Assembly: GCA_947564425.1 (NCBI GenBank)
Contig: CANOBU010000006.1
Span: 1-45,259, forward strand
DNA length: 45,259 nt
Direction: 5' to 3'
Source of the DNA: an uncultured Eggerthellaceae bacterium
Lineage (GTDB): Bacteria > Actinomycetota > Coriobacteriia > Coriobacteriales > Eggerthellaceae
Every line of letters starts with the position of its first letter. The first letter of the stretch is position 1. The translations under genes were made by a program, and so were the position numbers. Below are positions 28,272-36,377 of the stretch, piece by piece. A model generated the notes under the pieces. The model was not told where the DNA came from. It saw only the letters and a list, made by a program, of their open reading frames with translations, and did no database searches.

Positions 28272-30542
28272 CTAGGCCGCCGCAGGCCGCGGGCCGCCGT
28301 GGACCTTATGACGCGACCAGAACCATTGGGCAACGACCACAGCCGCGATTATCGCCACGCCGATAAGGTCCGAGAACGTGCCCGGATCCATCATCAGCAG
28401 GCCGCCGCCCACCAGCAGCAGGCGGAACAGCGGGTTTATCTTCGAGAACAGGTTGCCGTTCAGGGCCGCCGATATGCCGAAGAGCCCCACCAGCGAGGTG
28501 CAGATCACCTGCACCAGCTGCCACCAGGCGAAGGAGCCCTCCAGTATCATCACCGGGTTGAAGGCCAGGATGTAGGGCACGATGAAGGCCGCGATGGCCA
28601 GCTTGGCGGCATTCACGCCCGTCTTCATGGGGTTCGACCGCGCGATGGCGCTGCCGGCATAGGCTGCCAGGGCCACCGGCGGCGTGATATCCGCCACGAT
28701 GCCGAAGTAGAACACGAAGAAATGGGCCGCGATGGGGTCGATGCCCATGGCTATGAGGATGGGCGCCGTGGTGGATGCCATGATGCAGTAGTTGGCCGTG
28801 GTAGGCACGCCCATGCCCAGCACGATGCAGGTGAGCATGGTCAGCACCAGGCCCACGATGACGGCATCGCCCGCAGCGGTCACGATCACGTTCACCAGGG
28901 TGGAGGCCAGGCCCGTCACCGTGATGCAGCCGGCAATCATGCCGGCCATGGCGCAGGCCACGGCCACGGCCACGCAGCTCTTGGCGCCGGCCTGCAGCGA
29001 CTCGTAGGCCGCCGCCAGGGCCACCTTCGTCACGTTGACGAACACCTGCCCCATGGTCTCGCCCTCTTTGCGCTCGCGCAGCTCCGTCAGGAAGAAGTTG
29101 ATGTAGCCGATGACGAAGGCACCCAGGATGGACAGCGCAGCGGATACGGCCATGGTGCGCGCACCGCTGGCCACCAGCCACACCAGCAGCACCAGCGGGA
29201 TGATCAGATAGCAGTTCTTCAGCAGATAGGAGGCCTTGGGCAGCTCGTTGCGCGGGATGCCCTTCAGCCCCAGCTTCTTGGCCTCCAGGTGCACGGTGAT
29301 GAAGATGCCCGCGAAGTACAGCAGGGCCGGTATGATGGCCTTGGCCGCCACCTCGATGTAGGGGATGCCCATGTACTCGGCCATAAGGAACGCCGCCGCG
29401 CCCATGATGGGGGGCATGATCTGGCCGCCCGTGGACGAGGCCGCCTCCACCGCACCGGCGAACTCCGGCTTATAGCCCGTCTTCTTCATCATGGGGATGG
29501 TCACCGAGCCGGTGGTCACCGTGTTGCCCACCGACGAGCCCGACACCATGCCGCACAGGGCCGACGAGATCACGGCCACCTTGGCCGCGCCGCCCGATGA
29601 CCAGCCCGCCAACCTATTGGCCAGCGAGATGAAGAAGGCCGCGATGCCGGTGCGCTCCAGGAACGCGCCGAATATGATGAACAGCACGATATAGGTATAG
29701 CAGACGTTCACCGGCGTGCCGATGAGGCCGTCGGTGGTGTAGAACAGCGTGAACACCACCTGGCGCAGGGCCAGGAACGGCGTGAGGCCGTGGTCGAACT
29801 GCCACCAGAACGCATACACGATGAGGGCGAACACCACCACGATGATGGGGAGCCCCACGCAGCGGCGGCAGAGCTCGGCCACCACCAGGATGCCGATGAC
29901 GCCCACGGCGATCTGCAGGGGCTGCAGCCGCTGGCCCATATGGATCACATCGAGCGCATTGAAGGCGAAATAGAAGAAGCAGGCCGCACCCACCGCCATG
30001 ATGGCGATGTCGTACCAGGGGATGTAGTTCACGCGCACCCTGCCCTTGCGGGCCGGGTACATGAGATAGCCGATCACCACGATGAGCCCCACGAACAAGG
30101 TGAGCTTCGTCTGGGGCAATGCGGTCGAGAACAGCGTCATCCAGATGCAGTAGACAGAGAAGGCTGCCATGAGAACCGAGATGACCACCTTGGGAATGCC
30201 CTCCCAGATGCGCGTGTTCGACTCGCGGTCGTACTTGCGCATGATCTCGTCCACCTCGGCAGCGGAATCGCCCGCATCACGCAGCTCCTCTTTGGCTACG
30301 GCAGCCTCGCCGGTGCCCCGCGAGCTGTCCTCCAGCATAGAGCCCAGCGTCTCGCCGTCGGCCTCGGCCGCCATGGTGGCCGCCGCATCGGCTGCCTCGA
30401 TGGCCTCCCGAGCCCCGGGCGCCGCCTCGGCCGCATCGGCCACATCGAGGGAAGCCGCCACATCGGCGCCATCGGCTGGCTCTGCCACCAGGGAATACTC
30501 GCCTGAATCCTTCGTTCCGTATTTCTTCTTGAACAGTCCCAC
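28272..30542 (-). CDS. Fused TRAP transporter permease (4TM/12TM)
   Basis: A protein of 756 residues from the GTG at 30542, which has GGAG 7 bases upstream; the ATG at 30560 has no ribosome site. Residues 1 to about 105 are an acidic, alanine-rich, probably cytosolic extension. The rest is a fused small and large TRAP permease with many membrane segments and conserved glycine-rich runs such as SSALCGMVSGSSVGNTVTTG and GGQIMPPIMGAAAF. It imports an organic acid using a sodium gradient. The TAXI-type binding protein is encoded upstream on the same strand. The ligand is not known. The long N-terminal extension is unusual for the family. Confidence 0.93.
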   Translation of the reverse strand: MGLFKKKYGTKDSGEYSLVAEPADGADVAASLDVADAAEAAPGAREAIEAADAAATMAAEADGETLGSMLEDSSRGTGEAAVAKEELRDAGDSAAEVDEIMRKYDRESNTRIWEGIPKVVISVLMAAFSVYCIWMTLFSTALPQTKLTLFVGLIVVIGYLMYPARKGRVRVNYIPWYDIAIMAVGAACFFYFAFNALDVIHMGQRLQPLQIAVGVIGILVVAELCRRCVGLPIIVVVFALIVYAFWWQFDHGLTPFLALRQVVFTLFYTTDGLIGTPVNVCYTYIVLFIIFGAFLERTGIAAFFISLANRLAGWSSGGAAKVAVISSALCGMVSGSSVGNTVTTGSVTIPMMKKTGYKPEFAGAVEAASSTGGQIMPPIMGAAAFLMAEYMGIPYIEVAAKAIIPALLYFAGIFITVHLEAKKLGLKGIPRNELPKASYLLKNCYLIIPLVLLVWLVASGARTMAVSAALSILGAFVIGYINFFLTELRERKEGETMGQVFVNVTKVALAAAYESLQAGAKSCVAVAVACAMAGMIAGCITVTGLASTLVNVIVTAAGDAVIVGLVLTMLTCIVLGMGVPTTANYCIMASTTAPILIAMGIDPIAAHFFVFYFGIVADITPPVALAAYAGSAIARSNPMKTGVNAAKLAIAAFIVPYILAFNPVMILEGSFAWWQLVQVICTSLVGLFGISAALNGNLFSKINPLFRLLLVGGGLLMMDPGTFSDLIGVAIIAAVVVAQWFWSRHKVHGGPRPAAA

Positions 30543-30562
30543 GTCCTTACTCCGCTCCATCG

Positions 30563-30599
30563 AGAAGTCGCAATGGAGGCATCCCCCATTGCGACTTCT
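30563..30599 (-). terminator. Attenuator-like hairpin between TAXI and TRAP genes
   Basis: A perfect 14-bp stem (30563-30576 with 30586-30599) with a 9-base loop lies between the binding-protein and permease genes. It may stabilise the upstream message or reduce readthrough, giving more binding protein than permease. Confidence 0.6.
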
Positions 30600-30676
30600 G
30601 CTTTACGCACTATGTCGGTTCCGCACCGCCGGGCCCGGCGCAGGGCGCAGGCCCGAGCAGTCGCGATCCGCCGTTA

Positions 30677-31705
30677 TTACTGCTCGTCGAAGTACTTGGC
30701 CGCACCGGGGTGATAGGGCACCGTGGTGACGGAGGCAGCCTTCTCCTTGGAAAGCTCGCTGTACTTGGCATGGGCGGCAGCGGCCGTCTCGTCATCGGCG
30801 CTGGCGAAGATGTCCGCGACGAAGTTGTACACGTCGTCCTCGGGCACGTCGTTGGCAGCCAGGATGACGGCGCTCACGGCCACGGTCATGGTGTCGGTGT
30901 CAACACCGGCATAGGTGCCGGCCGGGATGACGGCCTCCACGTAGTAGGGGCTCTCGGCGATCAGGGCATCGATGTGCTCCTGGTCAAGCGACACCAGGTA
31001 GGCCTGCTGCGACGTGGACAGGTCGGTGATAGCCGTGGTGGGCGCACCGGCCACGATGAAGGCGGCGTCGATCTGGTCGTTCTTCAGGGCATCGGCGGAA
31101 TCGGCGAAGCTCTGGTAGGTCGGGGTGATGTCCTGCTCGGTGATGCCGTAGGCACCCAGGATATCGATGGCGTTGAAGTACACGCCGGAGTTCGGGGCGC
31201 CGATGGAGACGCGCTTGCCGGCCAGGTCGGCCACGGTCTTGATCTCGGGGTTGCAGGTCACGATCTGCACCTGCTCGTCGTACAGGGCGGCCACGGTGGA
31301 GAAGTTCGTGATGGGCTGGCCCTCGAACAGATTGGTGCCGTCATAGGCGTAGGCCATCACGTCGGACTGGCAGAAGGCCAGCTCGGCCAGGCCGTCGGCC
31401 AGCGACTCCACGTTGGCCTTGGAGCCGTCGCTGGTCAGGGCCACGATATCCACGCCGGCGTTGTTGGTGGCATGGTTGGCCAGCACCTGGCCGAAGCCGT
31501 AGTAGGTGCCGGACTGGCCGCCGGTGACGAAGCGCAGCTCGGAGCTGCTGGCGGCAGCCGTAGACGATGCGCTCTCGGAAGCGGCGGCGGACGAAGCCGC
31601 AGCGCTGCTGCTGGCGGAGTTGCCCGAAGAGCAGCCGACCAGAGCGAAGCTCAGGGCCAGCGCGGCAACGATGCCGATAAAGCTTTTCCTCGTAAGACTC
31701 TTCAT
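30677..31705 (-). CDS. TAXI-family TRAP solute-binding lipoprotein
   Basis: A 342-residue exported lipoprotein. The signal peptide ends in the lipobox LVGC (Cys25), then a Ser/Ala-rich linker runs to about residue 55. The mature domain opens with LRFVTGGQSGTYYGFGQVLA, typical of TAXI binding proteins, and includes KRVSIGAPNSGVYFNAIDIL. It captures the substrate for the permease encoded downstream. The substrate of this group is often glutamate or another dicarboxylate, but that cannot be set here. Confidence 0.93.
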   Translation of the reverse strand: MKSLTRKSFIGIVAALALSFALVGCSSGNSASSSAAASSAAASESASSTAAASSSELRFVTGGQSGTYYGFGQVLANHATNNAGVDIVALTSDGSKANVESLADGLAELAFCQSDVMAYAYDGTNLFEGQPITNFSTVAALYDEQVQIVTCNPEIKTVADLAGKRVSIGAPNSGVYFNAIDILGAYGITEQDITPTYQSFADSADALKNDQIDAAFIVAGAPTTAITDLSTSQQAYLVSLDQEHIDALIAESPYYVEAVIPAGTYAGVDTDTMTVAVSAVILAANDVPEDDVYNFVADIFASADDETAAAAHAKYSELSKEKAASVTTVPYHPGAAKYFDEQ

Positions 31706-32819: not shown

Positions 32820-32855
32820 GCTTTCGGAATGCCGCGGCAGACCGGAAGCGGAGAA

Positions 32856-32940
32856 AACTCTGGAGAACTCTTAAGTGAGTGCCGAAGGTGCAAGGCACGG
32901 CCCCGGCCGAGCCGAATCTCTCAGGCAAACGGACAGAGGT
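32856..32940 (+). ncRNA. Glycine riboswitch, single aptamer
   Basis: The conserved glycine aptamer core is visible: GGAGAACTC near the 5' side, GCCGAAGGTGCAA at 32881-32893, and TCTCAGGCAAACGGACAGAG at 32919-32938. CTCTG (32858-32862) closes with CAGAG (32934-32938). A second aptamer does not follow; the rest is a leader of about 77 bases to the GTG at 33018. TTTTCCCC (32971-32978) can pair with the GGGGAAA (33009-33015) that covers the ribosome site. A small hairpin CTCGC/GCGAG is inside. The platform therefore seems to act on translation. Whether glycine turns the gene on or off is not clear from sequence. Confidence 0.88.
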
Positions 32941-33017
32941 TGCATGCCCGACCATGCTCGCCGTGCACTGTTTTCCCCAGGGTCTTCTCGCCGATGCGAG
33001 GATTGAGAGGGGAAACC

Positions 33018-34556
33018 GTGGAAGAGATACTGCTCGGCATCGTCACCACCATCAACAACTACCTGTCGAACTACGTGCTCATCATATTGCTGCTGGGCAT
33101 GGGCGTGTGGTTCACCGTGCGCACCAAGGGCATCCAGTTCCGCTGCTTCGGCGAGGGCTGGCGGCGCATATTCGGTGACTTCAGCTTCCGCGGGGGCAAG
33201 CAGGGCGGCGGCATGACGTCGTTCCAGGCCCTGGCCACCGCCATCGCCGCCCAGGTGGGCACCGGCAACATCGTGGGCGCCTGCGGGGCCATCATCGTCG
33301 GCGGCCCCGGGGCCATCTTCTGGATGTGGATCATCGCGCTTCTGGGCATGGCCACCAACTACGCCGAGGCGGTCATGGCGCAGAAGACGCGCGTGGTCGA
33401 CGCCGACGGCTCGGTCCACGGCGGCCCCGTCTACTATATAACCTCCGTGTTCAAGGGCGCGGGCGGCAAGTTCCTGGCCGGCTTCTTCGCCGTGGCCATA
33501 ATCCTGGCCCTGGGCTTCATGGGCTGCATGGTGCAGTCGAACTCCATCGCCGAGACCATGAACAACGCCTTCGGCATCCCCACATGGGCTATCGGCATCG
33601 TGATCGTGGTGCTCGCCGGCTTCGTGTTCGTGGGCGGCGTGTCGCGCTTGGCGGCGGTCACCGAGAAGATCGTGCCCATCATGGCGCTGCTGTACGTGCT
33701 CGGCTCGATCGTGCTGCTCATCATGAACGCGCCGGCCATCCCGGCCACCTTCGCGCTCATCTTCGAGTGCGCCTTCAACCCCGAGGCCACGGTCGGCGGC
33801 GCGACGTTCGGCATCATCGCGGCCATCAGCCAGGGCGCGAAGCGCGGCCTGTTCAGCAACGAGGCCGGCATGGGCTCCACCCCGCACGCGCATGCGCTCG
33901 CCGAGGTGAAGAATCCGCACGAGCAGGGCACCGTCGCTATGATCGGCGTGTTCGTCGACACCATCGTCGTGGTCACCATGACGGCGCTGGTGGTGCTGTC
34001 CAGCATGTATGTGGGCGACGGCGCGCTGGCCACGGGCGACTACGCGGCGCTCACCGCTGACTCCATCACCAAGACCAACATCGCGCAGCTGGCGTTCGGC
34101 GCATCCTTCGGCTCGGACATCGGCGCCTGGTTCGTGGCCATCTGCCTGCTGTTCTTCGCCTTCTCCACCATCCTGTCCTGGAACCTGTTCGCCAAGCTGA
34201 ACGTGGAATGGCTCTTCGGCAAGAAGGGCGTGCTGCCCTTCACCGTGATCGCCCTCGTCTTCATCTTCATGGGCTCGCTGCTGTCGAACGACCTCGTATG
34301 GGAGCTGGCTGACATGTTCAACCAGCTGATGGTCATCCCCAACGCCATCGCGCTGTTCGCCCTCAGCGGCGCCGTGCTGGCCATCGCCAATGCCAAGCAC
34401 GACAAGAAGGCGCTCGACGTGCACGAGGAGCACGCGCAGGAGAAGGCCTGGGCCCAGGCCGAGCGCGCCGCCGAGCGCGGGCTGCAGCAGGCCGAGGACT
34501 CCGCCACCGCCGATATCCTGGAGGAGCGCGGGGATTTCCCCTCTGTTAAGAAATAG
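33018..34556 (+). CDS. Sodium/alanine (or glycine) symporter, AGCS family, copy 1
   Basis: A 512-residue membrane transporter. Family signatures include GTGNIVGACGAIIVGGPGAI and KRGLFSNEAGMGSTPHAHAL. It is expected to import alanine, glycine or similar amino acids with sodium. The GTG at 33018 has GAGAGGGG upstream, which the riboswitch leader can mask. The glycine aptamer makes glycine the likely regulatory ligand and a plausible substrate. An unrelated long C-terminal charged tail is shared with copy 2. Codons for residues about 22-128 are identical to copy 2. Confidence 0.95.
   Translation: MEEILLGIVTTINNYLSNYVLIILLLGMGVWFTVRTKGIQFRCFGEGWRRIFGDFSFRGGKQGGGMTSFQALATAIAAQVGTGNIVGACGAIIVGGPGAIFWMWIIALLGMATNYAEAVMAQKTRVVDADGSVHGGPVYYITSVFKGAGGKFLAGFFAVAIILALGFMGCMVQSNSIAETMNNAFGIPTWAIGIVIVVLAGFVFVGGVSRLAAVTEKIVPIMALLYVLGSIVLLIMNAPAIPATFALIFECAFNPEATVGGATFGIIAAISQGAKRGLFSNEAGMGSTPHAHALAEVKNPHEQGTVAMIGVFVDTIVVVTMTALVVLSSMYVGDGALATGDYAALTADSITKTNIAQLAFGASFGSDIGAWFVAICLLFFAFSTILSWNLFAKLNVEWLFGKKGVLPFTVIALVFIFMGSLLSNDLVWELADMFNQLMVIPNAIALFALSGAVLAIANAKHDKKALDVHEEHAQEKAWAQAERAAERGLQQAEDSATADILEERGDFPSVKK
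33082..33400 (+). repeat. 319-bp tract identical to copy 2 of the symporter
   Basis: This tract matches 34699-35017 without a single difference, offset 1617. Flanking sequence diverges at once, including at synonymous positions. Explained best by gene conversion after duplication. Confidence 0.95.
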
Positions 34557-34634
34557 CCGCGCGGGAAGGCGGCAGCGGTATCATGCAGGAACCGGAGGCG
34601 CCGCGACCCCCGGCAGGAAGGAAAGGAAACCGCC

Positions 34635-36323
34635 GTGGAAGAAGCATTGCTCGGCATCGTGACGACCATCAACAGCTACCTTTCGAACTACGTGCTGCTC
34701 ATATTGCTGCTGGGCATGGGCGTGTGGTTCACCGTGCGCACCAAGGGCATCCAGTTCCGCTGCTTCGGCGAGGGCTGGCGGCGCATATTCGGTGACTTCA
34801 GCTTCCGCGGGGGCAAGCAGGGCGGCGGCATGACGTCGTTCCAGGCCCTGGCCACCGCCATCGCCGCCCAGGTGGGCACCGGCAACATCGTGGGCGCCTG
34901 CGGGGCCATCATCGTCGGCGGCCCCGGGGCCATCTTCTGGATGTGGATCATCGCGCTTCTGGGCATGGCCACCAACTACGCCGAGGCGGTCATGGCGCAG
35001 AAGACGCGCGTGGTCGATGAGGACGGCTCGGTCCATGGCGGCCCGGCTTACTATATAACCACCGCCTTCAAGGGCACCGGGGGCAAGTTCCTGGCCGGCT
35101 TCTTCGCCGTGGCCGTCATCATCGCCCTGGGCTTCATCGGGCCCATGGTGCAATCGAACTCCATCGCCTCCACCATGAACACCGCCTTCGGCCTGGAACC
35201 CTGGATGGTAGGCGTCATCATAGCCGTCCTGGCCGGCTTCGTGTTCATCGGCAACGTGCACCGGCTGGCCTCCATCACCGAGAAGCTCGTGCCCGTCATG
35301 GCCGTGCTGTACGTCGCGGGCTCGCTGGTGGTGCTCGTCATGAACTGGCAGAACATCCCCGGGGCCTTCGGCCTCATCTTCACCTGCGCGTTCAACCCCC
35401 AGGCAGGCCTGGGCGGCGCATTCTTCGGCATGGTGGCCGCGATCACCTGGGGCGCCAAGCGCGGCCTGTTCAGCAACGAGGCCGGCATGGGGTCGACCCC
35501 CCACGCTCATGCGCTGGCCGAGGTGCGCGACCCCCACGAGCAGGGCGTGGTGGCCATGATCGGCGTGTTCATCGATACGCTCATCGTGGTCACCATGACG
35601 GCCCTGGTGGTCATATCCACGCTGTATGTGGGCGACGGCCCCCTGGCGGAAGCCTACGAGAACGCCGGGCGCTACCCGACCGCCGCGGCCTTCGTGCAGG
35701 CCGAGGGCGACAAGATAGCCGACGGCCTGACCCTGCAGGACGGCAAGCTGGTGGACGCCAAGGGCGCCGCCGTGCTCACCGACGACGACATGAGCGACCC
35801 GGGTGCGCTGGCAGCCGCCATCGGCATCGATAACGGCAACATGGCCCAGATAGCCTTCAGCCACTTCTTCACCACGGGCGGCGGCAATGTATTCGTGGCC
35901 ATCTGCCTGCTGTTCTTCGCGTTCTCGACCATATTGTCGTGGAACCTGTTCGCCAAGCTGAACTGGGAATACCTCTTCGGGAAGAAAACCATCCTGGTAT
36001 TCGCCTGCATCTGCACCTTCTTCGTGTTCCTGGGCGCCGTGCTGAAGATCGGCCTGGTATGGGAGCTGCAGGATATGTTCAACCAGCTGATGGTGCTGCC
36101 CAACGCCATCGCGCTGTTCGCCCTGACGGGATCCATCCTGGCCATCGCCAACGCCAAGCACGACAAGAAGGCGCTCGACGTGCACGAGGAGCATGCGCAG
36201 GAGAAGGCCTGGGCGCAGGCCGAGCGCGATGCCGAGGCCGCCCTGCGTCAGGCCGAGGACGCTGCCACAGCCGATATCCTGGAGCAGCGCGGGGACTACA
36301 TCGGGGACAAGAAGGGCGAATAG
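34635..36323 (+). CDS. Sodium/alanine (or glycine) symporter, AGCS family, copy 2
   Basis: A 562-residue tandem paralogue of the gene upstream. It begins at the GTG at 34635, with AAGGAAAGG before it, 78 bases after copy 1, so it is probably on the same riboswitch-controlled message. It keeps the AGCS signatures but carries extra sequence at residues about 338-415, between two late helices, absent from copy 1 and rich in Asp, Ala and Gly. This extra loop is probably extracytoplasmic. Its C-terminal tail (KHDKKALDVHEEHA) is near-identical to copy 1. Substrates of the two may differ. A strong terminator follows. Confidence 0.94.
   Translation: MEEALLGIVTTINSYLSNYVLLILLLGMGVWFTVRTKGIQFRCFGEGWRRIFGDFSFRGGKQGGGMTSFQALATAIAAQVGTGNIVGACGAIIVGGPGAIFWMWIIALLGMATNYAEAVMAQKTRVVDEDGSVHGGPAYYITTAFKGTGGKFLAGFFAVAVIIALGFIGPMVQSNSIASTMNTAFGLEPWMVGVIIAVLAGFVFIGNVHRLASITEKLVPVMAVLYVAGSLVVLVMNWQNIPGAFGLIFTCAFNPQAGLGGAFFGMVAAITWGAKRGLFSNEAGMGSTPHAHALAEVRDPHEQGVVAMIGVFIDTLIVVTMTALVVISTLYVGDGPLAEAYENAGRYPTAAAFVQAEGDKIADGLTLQDGKLVDAKGAAVLTDDDMSDPGALAAAIGIDNGNMAQIAFSHFFTTGGGNVFVAICLLFFAFSTILSWNLFAKLNWEYLFGKKTILVFACICTFFVFLGAVLKIGLVWELQDMFNQLMVLPNAIALFALTGSILAIANAKHDKKALDVHEEHAQEKAWAQAERDAEAALRQAEDAATADILEQRGDYIGDKKGE
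34699..35017 (+). repeat. 319-bp tract identical to copy 1 of the symporter
   Basis: Second arm of the identical direct repeat (see 33082-33400). Tandem direct repeats of this length could also recombine to delete one copy. Confidence 0.95.
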
Positions 36324-36350: not shown

Positions 36351-36377
36351 AAAGGGCGCCGCAACGGCGCCCTTTTT
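36351..36377 (+). terminator. Intrinsic terminator after the symporter pair
   Basis: AAAGGGCGCCG pairs with CGGCGCCCTTT across the loop CAA and is followed by a run of Ts. This is the clearest intrinsic terminator in the window. It lies 27 bases after the symporter stop and only about 18 bases before the cydD start. Confidence 0.92.

Follow-up and report, generated by a model that had tools for sequence, protein, structure and literature searches.

Gene conversion and concerted evolution of paralogues are known in prokaryotes (PMC6053082), and in Streptococcus pyogenes a glycine riboswitch controls a sodium:alanine symporter gene, with co-regulation of the gene downstream (PMC5829553). Here we describe two tandem genes for amino-acid transporters, the AGCS symporter genes copy 1 and copy 2, the first of which has very probably rewritten part of the second by gene conversion. 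They lie in a 45,259-nucleotide stretch of DNA (the window) from an uncultured Eggerthellaceae bacterium of the gut (GenBank assembly GCA_947564425.1, contig CANOBU010000006.1, positions 1 to 45,259, forward strand). The source is one metagenome-assembled genome (MAG) of 116 contigs and 86% completeness, the only genome of its species in the analysis.

How does this locus compare with described systems? As in prokaryotic concerted evolution (PMC6053082), paralogues of one genome are more alike, silent sites included, than they are to orthologues. Here, however, one short recent patch and one older patch connect genes of different lineages in one species, rather than recurring across many lineages. 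In contrast to S. pyogenes (PMC5829553), a single aptamer match stands before two AGCS genes, and control is predicted from the sequence. The AgcS sodium/alanine symporter (PDB 6cse/6csf) shares its family with both copies. Its entry 6cse is the PDB relative of both genes and can be aligned over nearly the whole transporter, but the alignment breaks at a lineage-specific insertion region of copy 2. A literature search on ectopic conversion combined with horizontal transfer of bacterial paralogues returned no match. The symporter pair adds one more case of gene conversion, a known process; the case is clear but ordinary.

Two lineages side by side

The two genes fall into two lineages. Lineage X comprises genes present in single copy in Adlercreutzia and in related genera of the Eggerthellaceae, and includes copy 1; lineage Y consists of genes of the window's own genus (largely MAGs from the ruminant gut), about 72% identical to copy 2, and includes copy 2. 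Both copies exceed the curated cut-off of the AGCS model TIGR00835 (272.65 bits). The GTG start of copy 1 was picked by homology.

33018..34556, + strand: copy 1, AGCS symporter of lineage X, 512 aa; TIGR00835 426.2 bits; up to about 89% amino acid identity to Adlercreutzia-type orthologues
34635..36323, + strand: copy 2, AGCS symporter with a Y-lineage core, 562 aa; TIGR00835 419.5 bits; core with same-genus Y genes, support 100

An identical tract in diverged genes

The original prediction had noted a 319-bp block identical at every base in the two genes, and this block is exact, at 33082-33400 and 34699-35017. It occurs at these two sites only in the whole MAG (1.67 Mb).

33082..33400, + strand: donor copy of the tract, X-type by tree and approximately unbiased (AU) test
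34699..35017, + strand: recipient copy of the tract, an X-type patch within a Y-type gene; 21 X, 3 Y and 1 other at diagnostic nucleotide sites

The tract covers codons 22-128 of copy 2, and mismatches directly abut it at its left and right ends. To the left, 8/60 bases are mismatched over the first 20 codons; to the right, codons 129-180 are about 85% identical, and beyond them identity lies mostly at 68-85% in 25- to 30-codon windows. Outside the tract the copies differ with dN (nonsynonymous divergence) 0.21 and dS (synonymous divergence) 0.44. The exact tract holds zero differences and has a dS of 0, which becomes 0.013 if codon 128 is counted, the third base of that codon falling just beyond the tract.

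Could such a run arise by chance? The identical run spans 186 polymorphic sites; the permutation maximum was 53, and chance is excluded because 0/20000 shuffles reached the observed run. Identity, silent sites included, is thus significantly longer than the overall divergence of the two genes predicts. At codons for conserved residues, silent differences between the copies number 0/70 in the tract and 42/183 outside it (Fisher p=6e-7). Twelve control pairs among relatives, including five unlinked Y paralogue pairs that each share a genome, show no such drop: their silent rates are alike inside and outside the tract region (28% and 26%, or 41% and 42%, for example). The third base is variable among relatives in 99/106 tract codons. 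None of the same-genome Y pairs contains a comparable identical tract, and the longest identical run in all other pairs, shared by two sister Adlercreutzia species, measures 287 bp, the next longest 122 bp. The same identity in unlinked orthologues, which would have told against conversion, did not occur, and neither orthologues nor unlinked paralogues show comparable identity.

Mosaic ancestry of copy 2

The ancestry of copy 2 changes along its length. The tract tree nests copies 1 and 2 within X (support 100); the core tree (copy 2 codons 181-480) places copy 1 in X and copy 2 with Y, again with support 100. AU tests reject placement of the copy 2 tract with Y (p=0.0008), of both tracts with Y (p=0.009) and of the copy 2 core with X (p=0.016). 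Read along copy 2, the diagnostic residues run X, X, Y, Y, are then almost all X in the tract, Y from 168 to 413 (few being unassignable), mixed, and X at the end. Seven fixed residue differences between X and Y fall within 22-128, at 22, 26, 28, 31, 67, 93 and 120. Residue 22 of copy 2 is Y-type and marks the left edge of the patch; the other six are X-type.

The tract hence groups with the donor lineage and the rest of copy 2 with its own. Copy 1 is X-type in tract and core alike, copy 2 is a mosaic, and the transfer was non-reciprocal. An X-type tract in a Y-core gene, seen in trees, AU tests and diagnostic residues, therefore implies transfer from copy 1 to copy 2. We count the identity, the lack of constraint, the mosaic ancestry and this direction as observations. 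With high confidence we read them as a recent, one-way gene conversion inside a single genome, with copy 1 as donor and copy 2 as recipient, and recent conversion between the tandem symporters, as originally proposed, is borne out by the permutation, silent-site and tree tests.

How might this have come about? An X-lineage copy 1 with an X-like glycine-riboswitch leader would have come to sit beside a resident Y-lineage copy 2. Homologous recombination of the RecA type between the direct copies, a route suggested by general knowledge of recombination, would then have written 319 bp of copy 1 sequence over codons 22-128 of copy 2. Through one or more earlier events, the 3' end of copy 2, and possibly also its first codons, would have become X-type.

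Three points weigh against this interpretation. With one genome of the species, the event is neither seen as a polymorphism nor dated; the window is known from the assembled, fragmented MAG alone; and copy 2 branches deeply within Y, so that its unconverted 5' sequence has no close reference.

Alternative explanations

The patch might have come from another cell of the same population, by allelic or xenologous recombination, rather than from copy 1 on the same chromosome. Such a source would formally yield identical sequence, and proximity alone tells the two apart; yet the nearest outside X gene is only about 91% identical in the tract and the neighbouring copy 100%, and we consider this origin improbable.

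Even less probable, in our judgement, is an assembly artefact in which the assembler collapsed or misplaced the tract. The source is indeed a MAG, and an exact repeat of 319 bp is longer than the usual short-read k-mers. Bubble merging by assemblers, however, needs about 95% identity; if copy 2 had a genuine Y-type tract, its identity to copy 1 would reach only about 75-81%, too low for merging. The 3' end common to both genes, moreover, has diverged since a likely earlier exchange of sequence; the genes would therefore have shared one genome for some time, which argues against assembly error. The assembler may have erased a few remaining differences from a tract that conversion had already changed, and the X-type ancestry of the copy 2 tract is independent of any such differences.

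The opposite direction of conversion, with copy 2 as donor, is very hard to maintain: identity by itself is symmetric, but tree and AU test assign the common tract to the lineage of copy 1, and its diagnostic sites are X-type in 21 cases and Y-type in 3. Strong nucleotide-level constraint as the cause of the identity deserves practically no credence, for although the encoded protein segment is well conserved (66/107 tract residues invariant across X and Y), the orthologues and five unlinked paralogue pairs vary equally inside and outside the tract, which excludes it.

Origin of copy 1

Copy 2 was taken as the resident gene because a Y gene adjoins gpmA in several members of the genus, as it does in the window. 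No strong X-lineage match other than copy 1 was present in the 15 genus genomes searched, and the genes upstream of copy 1 (the TRAP/TAXI/gpmA region) resemble those of the genus, not of Adlercreutzia. Copy 1 was therefore probably acquired horizontally, most likely from an Adlercreutzia-like relative and together with its X-like riboswitch leader; alternatively, it may have been retained vertically and lost elsewhere. Simple recent tandem duplication was rejected: the copies are not mutual closest relatives, the core of copy 1 grouping with X and that of copy 2 with Y. The two genes are separate lineages brought side by side, and no adjacent X-Y pair was found elsewhere in 138 family genomes.

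We see here a clean, directional case in which an apparently incoming gene rewrites part of a native paralogue. Mosaic transporter genes of this kind mislead single-gene trees, and identity between paralogues should not be taken as a measure of duplication age.

A probable older exchange at the gene ends

The claim that sequence on both sides of the tract differs freely holds at the tract edges, where mismatches begin at once, but not at the 3' ends of the genes, which are again similar.

34344..34540, + strand: 3' end of copy 1, matching that of copy 2 in the alignment
36105..36305, + strand: 3' end of copy 2, X-type, probable older exchange; 30-codon windows match copy 1 at 77-94% identity; 12 X and 0 Y diagnostic sites in 36105-36323

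The last 70 or so codons of copy 2 are X-type, and this tail is common to copy 1 and absent from Y genes. The first 13 codons of copy 2 and its ribosome-binding region also lean X. At least one earlier exchange between the genes is likely, because the 3' end of copy 2 is X-type yet diverged from copy 1 and its 5' end leans the same way. One might go further and imagine that sequence of the incoming, horizontally acquired gene replaces the ends of the resident paralogue time and again, that core and lineage-specific insertion are kept, and that the resulting hybrid symporter, controlled by a single glycine riboswitch, is selected; we regard this as a rather unlikely extension.

Insertion and sodium site

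35655..35822, + strand: insertion region specific to lineage Y, residues 341-396 of copy 2, of which 48 are missing in copy 1; present in same-genus Y genes, absent from X genes

The insert, originally put at 75 residues, thus measures 48. It had also been cited, with the later helices, as divergence between the two copies; both are old features of lineage Y, common to other species of the genus, and did not arise by divergence of duplicates. A role of conversion in keeping sodium-site function uniform is unsupported and also unneeded. Even without conversion, lineages X and Y agree in the consensus of the sodium/substrate motif region AAQVGTGNIVGACGAI, most of which is invariant; where the tract does carry fixed differences between X and Y, they fall outside this region. 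The functional weight of the event is small so far, since the transferred sequence brought no fixed lineage difference into the known sodium/substrate motif. Family and riboswitch together suggest glycine or alanine as substrate of the symporters.

Riboswitch and probable operon

32850..32946, + strand: aptamer of a glycine riboswitch (RF00504) in the X-type leader of copy 1, about 70 bp before the gene; cmscan 61.2 bits, gathering cut-off 32
34557..34634, + strand: 78-bp intergenic gap between the two copies, lacking a riboswitch and any terminator-like site on the + strand
36354..36377, + strand: perfect hairpin GGGCGCCG-CAA-CGGCGCCC followed by TTTTT, where the two-gene unit likely terminates; identified by reading the sequence, the consensus scan not having listed it

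The leader of copy 1 is 66.7-73.9% identical to X leaders and 59-65% to Y leaders. Relatives of X type and of Y type carry one riboswitch each; in the window the aptamer precedes copy 1 only, with no second one before copy 2. Copy 2's own riboswitch was lost, or was never present. Because the short gap lacks a terminator-like site on the + strand and the hairpin with its T run follows copy 2, the two genes probably form a single glycine-controlled operon, with one transcript predicted under one riboswitch, much like the symporter gene and its neighbour in S. pyogenes (PMC5829553).

Neighbouring and related genes

Beside gpmA, at 28272-31705, lie genes for a putative fused TRAP transporter membrane subunit and a putative TAXI-type binding protein, named by reading only; this neighbourhood is common to members of the genus. 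In another genus, two X-like AGCS genes form a tandem pair of independent origin (L218, G128:C132:13000-22000), with a separate glycine riboswitch before each gene; this pair contains no identical block like that of copies 1 and 2, its 25-codon profile running from 39 to 91%. In the MAG of the window itself, partial and more distant AGCS genes stand at contig ends (L230, G000:C12 start; L231, G000:C81), and are perhaps one gene in two parts.
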